This document shows, in pieces, positions 36,993 to 44,343 of a stretch of 64,000 bases of DNA. The stretch covers positions 248,001 to 312,000 of the forward strand of contig NZ_LVEG02000004.1 in the NCBI RefSeq assembly GCF_001614315.2, in the 5' to 3' direction. The stretch comes from Halofilum ochraceum. GTDB lineage: Bacteria; Pseudomonadota; Gammaproteobacteria; XJ16; Halofilaceae. The notes beneath the pieces are model-generated. The model ran no database searches. It was given only the letters and a program-made list of their open reading frames with translations, and was not told the DNA's origin. Position 1 is the stretch's first letter. Each line of letters starts with the position of its first letter. The position numbers were made by a program, and so were the translations under genes.

Positions 36993-38711
36993 GAGACCGT
37001 GAAAGTATTCCGCACCGGAAGGCCGGGCACCGCCGTTGCCGGCCGGTGAAGTCTGTCAGGCGGCCGCGGGCGCGCCGATGGACTGATGCTCGGTCCACGC
37101 GCGCATCGCCCGGAACAGGCGCGTGATGGCGGCACCGGAGCGGGAACGCGCGGAGCGGTGCCGGGCCCGCGCGGCGATCGCCGCGCGCAGCGCCCGCGGG
37201 CCGAGCACGTTGAGCACGCGCCGGAAGTTGTAGGCGAGCATCACCAGCCCGAGTTCGCCGTTGACCCGTTCGAGTCCGCGCACCAGGAAGTGATCCCAGC
37301 CGAGCCAGCGCTTGCCGGTGGCGAACGGGTGTTCGGACATCTCCGCACGCCGGCGCATGGCCTCGCGCCCGCCTTCTTCCATGCGCGGGCGATGCTCGCC
37401 CTCCAGCCACTCCTCGTGCTCGCTGCGGTAGATCTCGCGATAAGGCGTGCGCGCGGACAGGCAGGCTTCGCGGATCGGGCAGCACGCGCAGTCCGCGCGG
37501 TGGCTGGCGTAGTGGATCTGGCGCTGCCCCGAGCGGGTGATCACGCGCTGGCGCGCGAGGAACGCGCCCCGCGGACAGCGATAGCCGTCGGCCCCGGCGT
37601 CGAAGGTGAACGCCGCGCGCGCCACGCGCCCCGTCGCCGCCGAGGGGCCGCGGGGACGCGGCTCGGGCACATAAGGGGTGATGCCCGCGCCCTCGCAGGC
37701 CCGCATCTGTGCGGGGTTGAAGTAGTCGCCATCGGCGACCACCGTGAACCGCCCCATCCCCAGCGCGTCGGCGGCGCGCCCGGCCATCGGCTGCAGCTGA
37801 TGGCGGTCATTGCCGTCGCCGGTGGCCACCCCGTCGATGATCAGGCGCAGGCGCCCGTCGATCGCCAGCTGCACGTTGTAGCCGCACACCACGCGCCCGT
37901 TCTTGCTCAGACGCCGCGCATCCGGATCGACCTCGCTGAGCTGCGTCCCGCCGCTCGCCTGCAGGCGCGCCAGGCGGTCGGCCTCGCGCGCCTGGCGCTC
38001 GCGCAGGCGCTCGAGCTTCTCCCGCAGGGCGTCGGCGTCGTCATCGCCGCCCGGCGCCGCCGCTTCCGCTTCCGAGCGGTCCACCTCGTCCAGCGCCTGC
38101 AGATAGCGTTCGATGTCCGCCTCGATGCGCTGCACGCGCCTGTTCAGCTGATCGCGCGTGTGGATCCCCCTGGCGCCGGCATCACCGGCGAAAAACGAGC
38201 CGTCGATCGCCACCAGCTCGCGCCCGTACAGATCCAGCTCGCGGCACAGCTGCACGAAATCCCGGTGCACCGCCTGCAGCGCTTCGGCGTTGTCGCGGCG
38301 GAAATCCGCGATCGTCTTGTGGCACGGCTTCAGCCCCCGCAGCAGCCACATCACCTCCAGGTTGCGGTAACACTCCGCTTCCAGGCGGCGGCTGCTGCGC
38401 ACGCGCATCAGATAGCCATAGAGGTAGAGCTTCAAAAGCGCCGCCGGCGGATACGCCGGCTGCCCCGCGCTCACGCCGTCCGCCGTGTTCGTCACGCCCA
38501 GCGCGCGCAGATCCAGGCTCTCCACATACGTGTCCAGCGCCCGCACCGGGTTGTCTTCGGATACGTAGTCCTCCACCCGCATCGGCAGCAGCTGGCCCTG
38601 CCCGCGTTCCACGCCCGCCTTGTATCGCCGCGTCATGAAACGATCGCTCCGCTGGTCACAACGCGCGCGATTTTACCGGTACCGGAAAAACGCGAATACT
38701 TTTACAGTCTC
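36993..38711 (-). mobile_element. IS1182-type insertion sequence, complete
   Basis: 1,719 bp. Terminal inverted repeats: GAGACCGTGAAAGTATTC at 36993-37010, and at 38694-38711 the complement of GAGACTGTAAAAGTATTC (16 of 18 match). A 4-bp target duplication GGCA flanks both ends (36989-36992, 38712-38715). One transposase gene fills it. Removing the IS and one GGCA rejoins a REP palindrome (GTTGGGTTGAGCGGCA joined to GCGATACCCAAC). Confidence 0.9.
37056..38636 (-). CDS. IS1182-family transposase
   Basis: 526 residues, uninterrupted. N-terminal MTRRYKAGVERGQGQLLP, LYGYLMRVRSSRRLEAECYRNLEVMWLL and FRRDNAEAL are IS1182-type; DDE candidates are Asp in VAIDGSFFAGD, Asp in VVADGDYFNP and Glu in EMSEHPFATGKRWLG. 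A long coiled region (about 170-230) and a Cys-rich patch (CACCPIREAC) lie between. The frame looks intact, so the element may be active. Confidence 0.92.
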   Translation of the reverse strand: MTRRYKAGVERGQGQLLPMRVEDYVSEDNPVRALDTYVESLDLRALGVTNTADGVSAGQPAYPPAALLKLYLYGYLMRVRSSRRLEAECYRNLEVMWLLRGLKPCHKTIADFRRDNAEALQAVHRDFVQLCRELDLYGRELVAIDGSFFAGDAGARGIHTRDQLNRRVQRIEADIERYLQALDEVDRSEAEAAAPGGDDDADALREKLERLRERQAREADRLARLQASGGTQLSEVDPDARRLSKNGRVVCGYNVQLAIDGRLRLIIDGVATGDGNDRHQLQPMAGRAADALGMGRFTVVADGDYFNPAQMRACEGAGITPYVPEPRPRGPSAATGRVARAAFTFDAGADGYRCPRGAFLARQRVITRSGQRQIHYASHRADCACCPIREACLSARTPYREIYRSEHEEWLEGEHRPRMEEGGREAMRRRAEMSEHPFATGKRWLGWDHFLVRGLERVNGELGLVMLAYNFRRVLNVLGPRALRAAIAARARHRSARSRSGAAITRLFRAMRAWTEHQSIGAPAAA

Positions 38712-38920: not shown

Positions 38921-39814
38921 ATGACGACATCCAGCGAACCCACCCCCCGGCGCGTTGCCTTCATTGGTCTCGGCGTGATGGGCGGCCCGATGGCCGGGCA
39001 CCTCGCAGCCGCCGGCCATGACGTGACGGTCTACAACCGCACGCGCGCGACCGCCCAGGCCTGGTGTGACACACATGGTGGCCGTTTGGCCGACACACCG
39101 GCCGAGGCCGCGCGCGACGCCGAACTGGTGTTTGCCTGCGTCGGGCGAGACGAGGACCTGCGGGCCGTGACGCTGGAGGCCGACGGTGCCTTCGAGACCC
39201 TCGGGTCGGGTGCGGTGTTCGTGGATCATACGACCGTCTCCGCCGAGATCGCGCGCGAACTGGCGGACGCGGCCCGGTCACGCGGGGCGGGGTTTGTCGA
39301 TGCCCCCGTATCGGGCGGTCAGGCCGGGGCAGAGAATGGGCGTCTGGCCGTCATGGCGGGGGGCAGCGAGGCCGATTTCGCGGCCGCCGAACCCGTGATT
39401 CAGGTCTACTCGGCCCGCGTCGTCCACATCGGCGAGGCCGGCGCCGGACAGCTCACCAAGATGGTCAACCAGATCTGTATCGCCGGGCTCGTGCAGGCCC
39501 TGTCCGAGGGCGTCGATTTCGCCGGCCGCGCCGGGCTCGATATCGAGCGCGTGCTGGAGGCCATCGGCGGCGGCGCCGCGCAGTCCTGGCAGATGGACAA
39601 CCGCGCCCGGACCATGGCCGAAGGGGAGTTCGATTTCGGCTTCGCCGTCGACTGGATGCGCAAGGATCTGGAGATCTGCATGGCCGAGGCCCGCCGCAAC
39701 GGCGCGACGTTGCCGGTCACGGCGCTGGTGGATCAGTTCTATGGCCAGGTGCAGGCACGCGGTGGCGGCCGCAACGACACATCGAGCCTGATTCGGCTCC
39801 TTTCGCAGCCCTGA
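38921..39814 (+). CDS. 3-hydroxyisobutyrate dehydrogenase-family oxidoreductase
   Basis: 297 residues. NAD(P)-dependent beta-hydroxyacid dehydrogenase (GlxR/GarR/MmsB group). Nucleotide loop GLGVMGGPMAGHLAAAG, substrate motif DAPVSGGQAGAENGRL, catalytic Lys in GAGQLTKMVNQIC, and DFGFAVDWMRKDLEI near the C-terminus. The natural substrate (tartronate semialdehyde, 3-hydroxyisobutyrate or another) is open, since no pathway genes adjoin. ATG 38921 with GGGAG upstream. It lies between the IS and the DnaA-box region. Confidence 0.9.
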   Translation: MTTSSEPTPRRVAFIGLGVMGGPMAGHLAAAGHDVTVYNRTRATAQAWCDTHGGRLADTPAEAARDAELVFACVGRDEDLRAVTLEADGAFETLGSGAVFVDHTTVSAEIARELADAARSRGAGFVDAPVSGGQAGAENGRLAVMAGGSEADFAAAEPVIQVYSARVVHIGEAGAGQLTKMVNQICIAGLVQALSEGVDFAGRAGLDIERVLEAIGGGAAQSWQMDNRARTMAEGEFDFGFAVDWMRKDLEICMAEARRNGATLPVTALVDQFYGQVQARGGGRNDTSSLIRLLSQP

Positions 39815-40001
39815 GCTGTTGACTTATGCACACGGCGCGTGCCGGGGGCACCGGATCAAGCGCAGGGTGCAACCGTTTGCGCGCCGTTTCATAAGTCACT
39901 GTTTTCCGGGGGTGTAACTGAATGGATAAAATCTGACCAGAGCCCACAAGGGCGCCGCGAGATGCCGGGACAGGGCAACAACGCCCAGACTTTCCACATG
40001 T

Positions 40002-40024
40002 TTATCCACAGGTTCTGGGGATAA
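40002..40024 (+). repeat. DnaA-box palindrome, copy 1
   Basis: Arms TTATCCACAG and CTGGGGATAA around GTT, one mismatch from a perfect inverted repeat. A weaker box CTTTCCACA starts 12 bases upstream (39990). Confidence 0.85.
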
Positions 40025-40335
40025 CCGGCGATACCCGCGTCGTGCCAGGCACTTACGTATTTTCCGTAGGCCAGGGGCTGGGATCGTGCTCTCTCTGCCG
40101 ACGTGAAGAGTACTTCAGCGCTGATAAAAAGGGTCTCTGTCAACCCGAAAATCCGATTTATCAACATGATTGAACAGTGGGTACGGGTCGGTCAGGGGCG
40201 CTGCCACACTTGGCGCGCGGTTTTGTAAGTATTTGATTGTTGGGGTCTTAAACAACTGTTCAGAGTTTGGCCAGCCCCCACTGGGTGGCCGCTGGAGGCC
40301 GGGCTGCGGCCATCTCCCCCAGATTATTCACAGAC

Positions 40336-40358
40336 TTATCCACAGGTTCTGGGGATAA
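40336..40358 (+). repeat. DnaA-box palindrome, copy 2
   Basis: Identical to copies 1 and 3 over 23 bp. TTATTCACA starts exactly 12 bases upstream (40324). 334 bases from copy 1. Confidence 0.88.
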
Positions 40359-40690
40359 CCGGCGTAAGTGCCGTTGTAACAACAAGTTAGCGCCGCTGTC
40401 ATAGCCACTGGGGGATGCCGGCCACCCCCGCAAACCGTGTTTTCGGTTCCAGTGGAAATCGAGGCCCGAAATATTTCTCGTGCGGATTGCCTGTCAAGGT
40501 CTTGACTCAAGTTATGCACAATGCATTGGCCGTCTTGCCGGATGTTGACTCGTCTGCGAGCGATAACATGCCTGTCTGCGTAACCATTTGTTTTCCCGGT
40601 AAAAAATCACATGAACAAAAAATGACCAAAGGCACCGGGAGCGCAGCAAGAGGCCGTGTAGCGACGTGTCCCCCCACATTATCCACATTG

Positions 40691-40713
40691 TTATCCACAG
40701 GTTCTGGGGATAA
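40691..40713 (+). repeat. DnaA-box palindrome, copy 3
   Basis: Identical 23-bp core. TTATCCACA starts exactly 12 bases upstream (40679), and an AT-rich tract with runs of A and T (40580-40628) lies 50 bases further up. 355 bases from copy 2. Confidence 0.88.
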
Positions 40714-40836
40714 ACCGCTTTCTCCTTTGGCCACGGGCACTTGGCGCCAACCGTTACAGTGGCCGCCGTCGACGCCCGGCGCGCGCTCGGCGATAATGCC
40801 CGGCTTCGGCCGGCCGGCCGCGAACCGATTCTGTCA

Positions 40837-43800
40837 GTGAGCCCATCCGTGATCGCATTCAACGGCTTCAGCTTCGACGAACTGCAGACCCCCGCCGGCC
40901 TGGCGCGGCTCGACGCGTGCTTCCGCGAACGCGTGGCCGCGGCCGACGGGGCGCTGGCCGAGCGCCTCGACGCTCTGCGGGGTGGCGAGCCACTCGGGCC
41001 GCGCGATCATTCCGCGCTGCTGCTCGAACTCGCGCCGCACCTGGAGCGTTTCGTCACCGGGCTCTTCGGCATCGAAGCGAGCGTCGAGGCCCTGCGCGCA
41101 GAGTTGACCCGTCACGATCCGGTCCTGCGCTTCAAGAATGAGTACGTCCTGCGCCGCACCCGCAAGATCCGCGAGCTGCCGGATGAAGACTTCGACCGCA
41201 TCGACGCCTGGCTGGAGCAGCAGCTCGACGCCGATTACAGCGACCGCGAGGCGGCCGTCGCCGCCTTCGCCAACGGCCTGCTCATCGACCCCGAGCGCAA
41301 CGAAGAAACGATCAACCGCATCGCCGAGTGGTGCGCGCTCGCGCAGCGCACGGAGGCCGGCGCGCGTGCCGTCAACGGCTGGACCGCCTTCAAGCTGCCG
41401 CAGAAGGTCGATCACACGGCCTTGGTGCCACTGGTCGCCGCCCACGAAGGCGAGGCCGATGTCCTCAACGCCAGTCCCGAGCGCCTGCGCCGCCGCGACG
41501 GCTTCCAGCTCACCGACCGCCGCATGGACACCCGCCACATCCAGGGCGAGGTCAACTACTGCATCTACTGCCACGAGCACAACGGCGACTTCTGCTCCAA
41601 GGGTTTCCCGGAGAAGAAGAAGCAGCCCGAGCTCGGCCTCAAGGTCGACCCGCTCGGCAACAAGCTGACCGGTTGCCCGCTCGAGGAGAAGATCTCCGAG
41701 ATGCACGTCTGCCGGCGCGACGCCATGCCCGTCGCCGCGCTGGCGATGGCCATGATCGACAACCCGATGATCCCGGCGACCGGACACCGCATCTGCAACG
41801 ACTGCATGAAGGCCTGCATCTACCAGAAGCAGGATCCGGTCGACATCCCGCAGATCGAGACGGGCACGCTCACCGATGTGCTGCGCCTGCCCTGGGGTGT
41901 GGAGGTCTACCACCTGCTGGCGCGCTGGAACCCGCTGCGGCCCGAGCAGTACGTCCAGCAGCCGGACAACGGCCGACGCGTCATGGTCGCGGGCATGGGC
42001 CCGTCCGGCTTCACCATGGCGCACCACCTGACCATGGCCGGCTGCGCCGTGCTTGGTATCGACGGCCTCAAGATCGAGCCGCTGCCGGAAGAGTTGCTCA
42101 ACGCGCCGGTACGCGACTGGGACGCGCTGGAAGAGCCGCTGGATGAACGCATCCTGCTCGGGTTCGGCGGCGTCGCCGAGTACGGCATCACCGTGCGCTG
42201 GGACAAGAACTTCCTGAAGCTGATCTACCTCACGCTCGCGCGCCGCCACAGCTTTGCCGTGCGCGGCGGCGTGCGTCTGGGCGGCACGGTCACCATCGAG
42301 GACGCCTGGCAGCTCGGTTTCGACCACGTCAGCGTCGCCACCGGCACCGGGCTGCCGCGCGTCGTCTCCATCGGCAACAGCCTCGCGCGCGGTATGCGCC
42401 AGGCGAGCGACTTCCTCATGGCGCTGCAGCTCACCGGCGCCGGCAAGGAATCGAGCATCGCCAACCTGCAGGTGCGCCTGCCCGCGGTGGTCGTCGGCGG
42501 CGGCCTCACCGGCGTGGATACCGCCACCGAGGTGCAGGCGTACTACATCAAGCAGGTCGAGAAGACGCTCTGGCGCTACGAAACGCTGGTCGCCGAGCGC
42601 GGCGAGGATGCCGTGCTCAGCGCCCTCGGCGACGAGGACCGCGAGATCCTCGCGGAATTCCTCGAACACGGCCGCGCCGTGCGCGATGAGCGCGCCCGCG
42701 CCGCCGCCGTCGGCGAGACGCCCGACTTCACGCCGCTGCTACAGGCCTGGGGCGGGGTGACCATCGCCTACCGCAAGGGCCTGAACGATTCGCCGGCGTA
42801 CACGCGCAACCACGAGGAAGTGGCCAAGGCGACGGAGGAGGGCATCCGCTACGCCGAGGGCCTCGATCCGCTGCACTGCGAACTCGACGACTACGGCCAT
42901 GTGCGTACGCTCATCTGCCGGCGCATGCACAACCAGGGCGGGCGCTGGCTGGCCGGCCGCGAGGAGGTCCACCTGCCGGCCAAGGCCGTGTTCGTCGCCG
43001 CCGGCACCGTGCCCAATACCATCTACGAGCGCGAATACCCCGGTACCTTCGCGCTCAATGGCGACTTCTTCGAGTCACACGTCGAACACCACGACCGCCT
43101 GCAGCCGGTCGCCCAGGCCGAGCACGCGAAATCACAGGAGTTCGGCCCGTTCACCTCGTACAACCAGGGCGGCCACAAGGTCAGCTTCATCGGCGACACG
43201 CACCCCGCCTTCCACGGCAGCGTGGTCAAGGCGATCGCCTCATCCATGCGCACGTACCCCGAGATCCTGGACGCGCTCGGCAGCGCGCCCCGCGCCAGCG
43301 ACGATCAACGCGACAGCGAAGCGTTCCTCGAGGAAGTCGCCGACCGGTTCCAGGCGACGGTCCTCTCGGTCAACACCAGCGACACCGCCATGGCCGAGGT
43401 CTGGGTACGCGCCCCCATGGCCGCGCGCAACTTCCGCCCCGGCCAGTTCTACCGCCTGCAGACCTTCGAGTCGCTGTCACCGGTCGTCGAAGGCACGCGC
43501 CTGCAGGTGCCGCTGCTGACCGTCTCCGGCACCGGCGTGAAGGACGACATGATCCGCCTCATGGTCCTGCAGTTCGGCGCCGGCCCACGCCTCGTCGGCC
43601 GTCTCAAACCCGGCGACCCGATCGTGCTCATGGGCCCGACCGGCAAACCCACCGAGATCCCGGAGAACGAGACCGTCATGGTCATCGCCGGCCGCTGGGG
43701 TGCCGCCGCCATGCTCGACATCGGCCACGCCCTGCGCGAAGGCGGCAACCGCGTCCTCTACATCGCCGCCTTCGGCAACGCCCGCGACGTCGATCTCCAG

Positions 43801-44343
43801 AGCGAACTCGAAAACGGTGCCGACCAGATCGTCTGGGCCACCGCCAATGAACCGACCATCGAGGCCCGACGCGAACAGGACCGCAGCGTCATCGCCACCG
43901 ACATGGTCGATCTCGTACAACAATACGGCGACGGCAAAGTCGCCGACGACCACACCATCGACCTGCAACAGGTCGACCGCATCCTCGTCATGGGCGGCAC
44001 GGGATTGCTGAGAGGCTTCCAGGGCGCACTCACCGAAGGCGCACTGACAAACCACTTCCGCCCCGACATCCAGGCCATGGGCACTGCCGGCAGCCCCATG
44101 CAGTGCATGCTCAAGGGCGTCTGCGCCCAGTGCCTGCAATGGCAGAAAGACCCCGAAACCGGCGAACGCACCCGACCCGTCTTCTCCTGCGCCGAACAGG
44201 ATCAGCCGCTGGCGTGGATCGACCTCGATAACCTGCAGGCGAGACAGCAGCAGAACCGGCTGCCGGATCGGCTCACGTCGATGTGGCTGGATTATGTGCT
44301 GGAGCGGGAAGGGCAATCGCCGGAGGGCGCGCGGGCCGGGTAA
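40837..44343 (+). CDS. Fused GltD-like / PyrK-like flavin oxidoreductase
   Basis: 1,168 residues. Early Cys motifs (CIYCHEHNGDFC, HRICNDCMKACIYQ; the latter 4Fe-4S-like as in GltD) precede a two-dinucleotide-fold region: GMGPSG after RRVMVA, and VVVGGGLTGVDTATEV. From about 865 a ferredoxin-reductase unit follows (FRPGQFYRLQTF, IVLMGPTGKPTEIP) ending in a PyrK-type 2Fe-2S motif (CMLKGVCAQC ... FSC). It is built to pass electrons between NAD(P)H, FAD and Fe-S centres; the substrate is unknown. The start is uncertain: GTG 40837 or GTG 40849 are preferred over a TTG at 40741 that falls beside the DnaA boxes. Confidence 0.8.
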   Translation: MSPSVIAFNGFSFDELQTPAGLARLDACFRERVAAADGALAERLDALRGGEPLGPRDHSALLLELAPHLERFVTGLFGIEASVEALRAELTRHDPVLRFKNEYVLRRTRKIRELPDEDFDRIDAWLEQQLDADYSDREAAVAAFANGLLIDPERNEETINRIAEWCALAQRTEAGARAVNGWTAFKLPQKVDHTALVPLVAAHEGEADVLNASPERLRRRDGFQLTDRRMDTRHIQGEVNYCIYCHEHNGDFCSKGFPEKKKQPELGLKVDPLGNKLTGCPLEEKISEMHVCRRDAMPVAALAMAMIDNPMIPATGHRICNDCMKACIYQKQDPVDIPQIETGTLTDVLRLPWGVEVYHLLARWNPLRPEQYVQQPDNGRRVMVAGMGPSGFTMAHHLTMAGCAVLGIDGLKIEPLPEELLNAPVRDWDALEEPLDERILLGFGGVAEYGITVRWDKNFLKLIYLTLARRHSFAVRGGVRLGGTVTIEDAWQLGFDHVSVATGTGLPRVVSIGNSLARGMRQASDFLMALQLTGAGKESSIANLQVRLPAVVVGGGLTGVDTATEVQAYYIKQVEKTLWRYETLVAERGEDAVLSALGDEDREILAEFLEHGRAVRDERARAAAVGETPDFTPLLQAWGGVTIAYRKGLNDSPAYTRNHEEVAKATEEGIRYAEGLDPLHCELDDYGHVRTLICRRMHNQGGRWLAGREEVHLPAKAVFVAAGTVPNTIYEREYPGTFALNGDFFESHVEHHDRLQPVAQAEHAKSQEFGPFTSYNQGGHKVSFIGDTHPAFHGSVVKAIASSMRTYPEILDALGSAPRASDDQRDSEAFLEEVADRFQATVLSVNTSDTAMAEVWVRAPMAARNFRPGQFYRLQTFESLSPVVEGTRLQVPLLTVSGTGVKDDMIRLMVLQFGAGPRLVGRLKPGDPIVLMGPTGKPTEIPENETVMVIAGRWGAAAMLDIGHALREGGNRVLYIAAFGNARDVDLQSELENGADQIVWATANEPTIEARREQDRSVIATDMVDLVQQYGDGKVADDHTIDLQQVDRILVMGGTGLLRGFQGALTEGALTNHFRPDIQAMGTAGSPMQCMLKGVCAQCLQWQKDPETGERTRPVFSCAEQDQPLAWIDLDNLQARQQQNRLPDRLTSMWLDYVLEREGQSPEGARAG

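Follow-up and report, generated by a model that had tools for sequence, protein, structure and literature searches.

What is the role of a dense cluster of DnaA boxes with neither dnaA nor mnmG beside it? The window, the whole 64,000-nucleotide stretch of DNA analyzed here (C4:248001-312000 of genome G000, which has 3.64 Mb in 35 contigs), holds a box-rich region of about 930 bp in the intergenic gap 39815-40833. In the original prediction, this region was proposed to be a replication origin, of the chromosome or of a second replicon, or a DnaA-titrating locus like datA, and it was rightly pointed out that dnaA and mnmG do not lie there; both were found on contig C17. The gap is flanked by a 3-hydroxyisobutyrate dehydrogenase-type oxidoreductase gene on the left (38921..39814, + strand; PF03446, PF14833) and by a large FAD/NAD(P) oxidoreductase gene on the right (PRK06567-like; 40834..44343, + strand, start codon assumed). 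Further to the left, a transposase gene (DDE type, DUF772) is located at 37056-38636.

Exact matching in the window gave seven copies of TTATNCACA, all on the + strand as predicted, at 39824, 40002, 40324, 40336, 40512, 40679 and 40691. The chance expectation in the 64-kb window is 0.22, and none of 100 shuffles reached seven. The locus holds 7 of the 18 TTATNCACA in the entire 3.64-Mb genome and is the densest cluster of perfect DnaA boxes genome-wide. The other boxes were also found where they had been described, TTATCAACA at 40158 (+) and TTATCCCCA on the − strand at 40016, 40350 and 40705, together with a 23-bp near-palindrome repeated in steps of 334 and 355, which proved to be an identical 23-mer, TTATCCACAGGTTCTGGGGATAA, at 40002, 40336 and 40691. 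The three clusters had been thought to follow one plan, a 9-mer and then the palindrome; the 23-mer repeat stands, but the 9-mer ahead of the first palindrome is imperfect (CTTTCCACA). Since the distance from a lone upstream box to the palindrome is constant (178, 178 and 179 bp in units 1, 2 and 3), the repeat unit is larger than initially described, and this single upstream box, rather than the 9-mer and palindrome, is the better starting point for counting the units.

Each unit, read on the + strand, runs from a distal box through an IHF-like site at −110 and a Fis-like site at −78 to a core, in which box III and box II are 3 bp apart and an inverted box I follows after a further 5 bp. Unit 1 (39824..40024 from distal box to core box I, according to the box map) starts with the distal box TTATGCACA at −178 (39824..39832), followed by the IHF-like site TAAGTCACTGTTT with two mismatches (39892..39904; shuffle frequency 6.5e-4), the exact Fis-consensus site GGATAAAATCTGACC (39924..39938; shuffle frequency 6e-4) and the core at 39990..40024, with CTTTCCACA as box III, TTATCCACA as box II and TTATCCCCA as inverted box I. 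Unit 2 (40158..40358) has a distal box with one mismatch, TTATCAACA, at −178 (40158..40166), exact IHF (TAAGTATTTGATT, 40226..40238) and Fis (GTTCAGAGTTTGGCC, 40258..40272) consensus sites, and the core TTATTCACA, TTATCCACA and inverted TTATCCCCA (40324..40358). In unit 3 (40512..40713), the distal box TTATGCACA lies at −179 (40512..40520), the IHF-like site TAACCATTTGTTT has one mismatch (40581..40593), the Fis-consensus site GAACAAAAAATGACC is exact (40613..40627), and the core at 40679..40713 contains TTATCCACA as both box III and box II, with TTATCCCCA as inverted box I, presumably a weak DnaA box in all units. The AT-rich tract at 40580-40628, for which a function as unwinding element had been suggested, coincides with the IHF-like (left part) and Fis-like (right part) sites of unit 3, which argues against that function.

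The interior of the units was evaluated by comparison with other loci. When the region was compared with 143 relatives by blastn, many families gave short matches to the palindromic portion, and from these matches 26 comparison loci were obtained by core similarity only. In 19 of these 26 loci, an equally oriented DnaA box was present between −187 and −200 relative to box II, versus 0.014 expected. Common to the loci are an IHF consensus (TAAnnnnTTGATW) at −110/−111 and, at −77 to −79, a Fis consensus (GnnYAnnnnnTRnnC), both as quoted in PMC8682772. In the window units, the offset of the IHF-like sites is exactly −110 (with 2, 0 and 1 mismatches), and that of the Fis sites, which match the consensus exactly, is exactly −78. 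An IHF site and a Fis site at the given offset each arise in no more than roughly 0.1% of shuffled interiors. The interior sites count as independent evidence, because only the core had served to retrieve the loci. With a matrix of the interior alone, excluding DnaA boxes, the three units ranked 1st, 4th and 7th among 1.06 million positions of C4, and all the positions ranked between them come from a single AT-rich stretch at 482 kb. In addition, genes for DnaA, Hda and IHF-alpha are present in genome G000, as is one for a protein whose C-terminal domain is Fis-like; this Fis homologue scores below the NCBIfam curated cut-off and lies in a longer open frame.

The arrangement corresponds to that of the DnaA-reactivating sequences DARS, whose function was worked out in E. 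coli. Their core is defined by three DnaA boxes whose spacing does not differ between DARS1 and DARS2 and of which box I runs against boxes II and III (PMC5742627; also PMC8682772). All three window units have this three-box core with the inverted box I at the 3-bp/5-bp spacing, in an intergenic site (39815-40833) away from oriC, as judged by a contig other than that of dnaA and mnmG and by the lack of a skew switch. Mismatches to the 35-bp core are 3, 1 and 1 in units 1, 2 and 3, compared with 2 in E. coli DARS1, 3 in DARS2, 6 in datA and 9 in oriC. A model, R1, was then built on 19 elements outside the genus, from other gammaproteobacterial families and with E. coli excluded. On the window, it recovered the three units with 69.4 bits for unit 3 (40507-40715, E 1.4e-20), 55.1 bits for unit 2 (40218-40360, E 3.6e-16) and 51.4 bits for unit 1 (39817-40026, E 5.1e-15). 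E. coli DARS1 was matched with 32.1 bits (E 4.5e-9) and DARS2 modestly, with 19.4 bits (E 3.5e-5). E. coli oriC and datA were used as negative controls, since a phylum-wide search was unsuitable because many genomes outside the class matched too; oriC gave no match, and datA gave a marginal, partial one (11.7 bits, E 0.0085). The region is thus probably, with a probability of roughly 0.8, a tandem triple DARS that would recharge ADP-DnaA to ATP-DnaA, a biochemistry that we infer from its sequence architecture. IHF and Fis sites were found at −110 and −78 and not at the DARS2 positions, where IHF adjoins the core and the essential Fis sites lie farther out; therefore, the units are DARS-type and not strict DARS2.

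The alternative of a datA-type locus, where a box cluster with IHF promotes ATP hydrolysis or acts as a passive sink, is improbable. Like the window locus, E. coli datA is a DnaA-box cluster with an IHF site away from oriC, and many high-affinity boxes with IHF-like sites, or any such box cluster, would titrate some DnaA. However, the box arrangement of datA around one IHF site was not found at the locus; E. coli datA lacks the three-box core (6 mismatches at best versus 1, 1 and 3 in the window) and is only partially matched by R1. Moreover, a box I inverted against box II at 5 bp is a DARS hallmark, and passive titration leaves the fixed IHF and Fis offsets across families unexplained. What the original prediction had right in suggesting datA is the DnaA theme and a non-origin locus; the architecture matches DARS1 and DARS2 instead.

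Elements matching R1 were found in 251 of 276 Gammaproteobacteria genomes, often two in each, and also in genomes of other classes. In family f194 of the same phylum but another class (e.g., G326, G329 and G389), 5-9 well-scoring, mostly near-full-length DARS-type elements per genome were observed. Reviews state that DARS-like sequences exist in many proteobacteria; a class-wide DARS architecture was not found in the literature searched, and no title or abstract matched tandem DARS or DnaA boxes upstream of priA, an absence that is not proof of novelty. Elements upstream of priA were seen in 26 genomes, which represent about 23 families; their distance from the gene is 83-150 bp in every case, and the core always faces priA (loci L067-L089 and L155-L187). 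The priA-linked copy of G000 is on C2, between priA and pntB. A weak element of 23.9 bits at G000:C17:145664-145876, about 100 kb from dnaA, has boxes III and II and no box I; it may be a decayed copy or something else.

These settings bear on a further reading, a promoter region of the downstream gene controlled by DnaA, IHF and Fis. The core of unit 3 faces the oxidoreductase gene at a distance of about 143 bp, and in other families every priA-linked element likewise faces priA from a similar distance. Beyond priA, however, the settings are varied, with the downstream gene on the opposite strand in many cases and some elements between apparently convergent genes (L169, L174, L184 and L090), which argues against a promoter role; the two loci of G000 also adjoin unrelated genes. 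Outside the genus, nearly all relatives carrying the oxidoreductase gene have no box cluster upstream of it, so the array location is not conserved beyond the genus. A promoter is thus quite improbable, more so than a datA-type locus. Nothing seen at the locus hinted at an RNA.

The origin reading was assessed from gene order and base skew, with skew and scanning done on two contigs of G000. On C17, dnaA lies between dnaN on one side and rpmH, rnpA, yidC, mnmE and mnmG on the other (rpmH, rnpA, yidC and mnmE recognized by their translations). GC skew along C4 (531 kb) is mostly positive, dipping slightly at 270-290 kb; in the 100 kb to the left and right of the locus, it amounts to 0.0168 and 0.0376. 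The prediction had noted by eye no clean switch in base skew, which proved correct, and had proposed a contig-wide skew check; this check showed an unchanged sign across the locus, against an origin. The dnaN-dnaA gap (G000:C17:41106-41346) contains TTTTCCACA, two more one-mismatch boxes and an AT-rich stretch. Since it is the densest kilobase of such weak boxes on C17, it is the natural oriC candidate of G000 on sequence grounds. An oriC at the window locus was rejected, and an origin, chromosomal or of a second replicon, is the least probable reading: despite the densest perfect-box cluster in the genome, an AT-rich stretch and only weak boxes in the dnaN-dnaA gap, the locus is within a 531-kb contig with positive skew on both sides and has dnaA, dnaN and mnmG on another contig, an IHF-like and Fis-like pair as its AT-rich tract, and a DARS-like architecture unlike E. 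coli oriC, which R1 does not match, such elements being 55 kb to more than 1 Mb from dnaA in the complete genomes examined.

Returning to the tandem DARS, the same place in the genus carries three units in G001 and one in G002. Orthologous units of G000 and G001 are 78-81% identical, whereas paralogous units are 52-63% identical; therefore, the triplication predates the split of G000 and G001. The predicted sites were retained as the spacers diverged. Another triple tandem array was found in G224 (C206:51219-52075) and tandem pairs in G288 (C167), G139 (C11), G437 (C1), G194 (C122), G225 (C209) and G283 (C1); the arrays in other families are apparently independent of the window array. Distal-box distances cluster near 178, 189 and 199; each step corresponds to roughly one helical turn, which would fit looping. 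A tentative scenario, held at somewhat less than even odds, is an ancestral gammaproteobacterial DARS plan (distal box at about −190, IHF at −110, Fis at −78, core), usually with a priA-fixed copy and a movable second one. DARS1 and DARS2 would be its reduced and rearranged descendants, respectively, and in some lineages, including this genus, tandem arrays would have grown from the movable copy, providing heritable dosage control over DnaA recharging.

In the proposed mechanism, ADP-DnaA would bind boxes III, II and inverted box I of the core in each unit, the molecules on boxes I and II meeting head to head. Bending of the DNA would fall to IHF at −110; Fis at −78 and the distally bound DnaA would bring the flank back onto the core, with a stimulating effect. 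ADP would then be released, and the departing apo-DnaA would take up ATP, giving ATP-DnaA competent for initiation at the genuine oriC, located elsewhere. With three units instead of one, a single chromosomal locus would recharge more DnaA. Binding of the proteins, exchange of the nucleotide and a dosage effect at the array are what we infer by analogy with the E. coli mechanism (PMC4245941, PMC8682772, PMC5742627), where an additional DARS2 carried by an F plasmid increases the number of origins per mass (PMC5010248). The genus offers a natural test of DARS copy number against replication timing, since a single unit is present in one species and three units in two relatives. In general, dense DnaA-box clusters should be checked for an inverted I-II pair before an origin is called.

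Comparison with the named systems places the array among known elements. E. coli DARS1, in the bioD-uvrB intergenic region, has the core TAATACACA-TGG-TTATCCACA-GGAAT-AGTGGATAA, with a geometry identical to that of the window units, but it is a single copy, unlike the three units of the window. Between its core and the distal position, there is no exact IHF or Fis consensus, unlike in the window, and the only possible distal box is TTATCCCCA at −209. DARS1 has been reported to be active without IHF or Fis (PMC5742627). Despite this reported independence, the class-wide interior signature is in exact register in DARS1 (L147 2107-2259), where the interior matrix ranked it 1 of 40,604 positions; DARS1 may be a reduced form.

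E. coli DARS2, in the rppH-mutH intergenic region, has the core TTCTTCACA-ACT-CTATCCACA-GAAAA-GGTGAATAA with the same geometry as the window units. Its IHF and Fis sites also lie toward the box III end of the core, and a distal DnaA box of consensus sequence stands some 190-200 bp away from the core. Unlike the window, it is a single copy, its distal box at −197 is inverted relative to that of each window unit, IHF is at −99 rather than −110, and the Fis-consensus match lies beyond IHF, at −137, whereas it lies between IHF and the core, at −78, in the window units. The interior matrix did not find the signature in register in DARS2. Box I is imperfect in E. coli too, though at positions other than in the window TTATCCCCA.

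Within G000 itself, the priA-upstream element (C2:141199-141426; 74.8 bits) is built like the window units, with a distal box, IHF and Fis sites and the core. It differs from the window in having one unit, a distal box at −199 and not −178 (elsewhere, priA-upstream elements have it mostly at −187 to −200), and TTATCCACA as box I instead of TTATCCCCA. The putative switch at this locus is thus of a known kind, its core and geometry already known from E. coli, here as three tandem copies.
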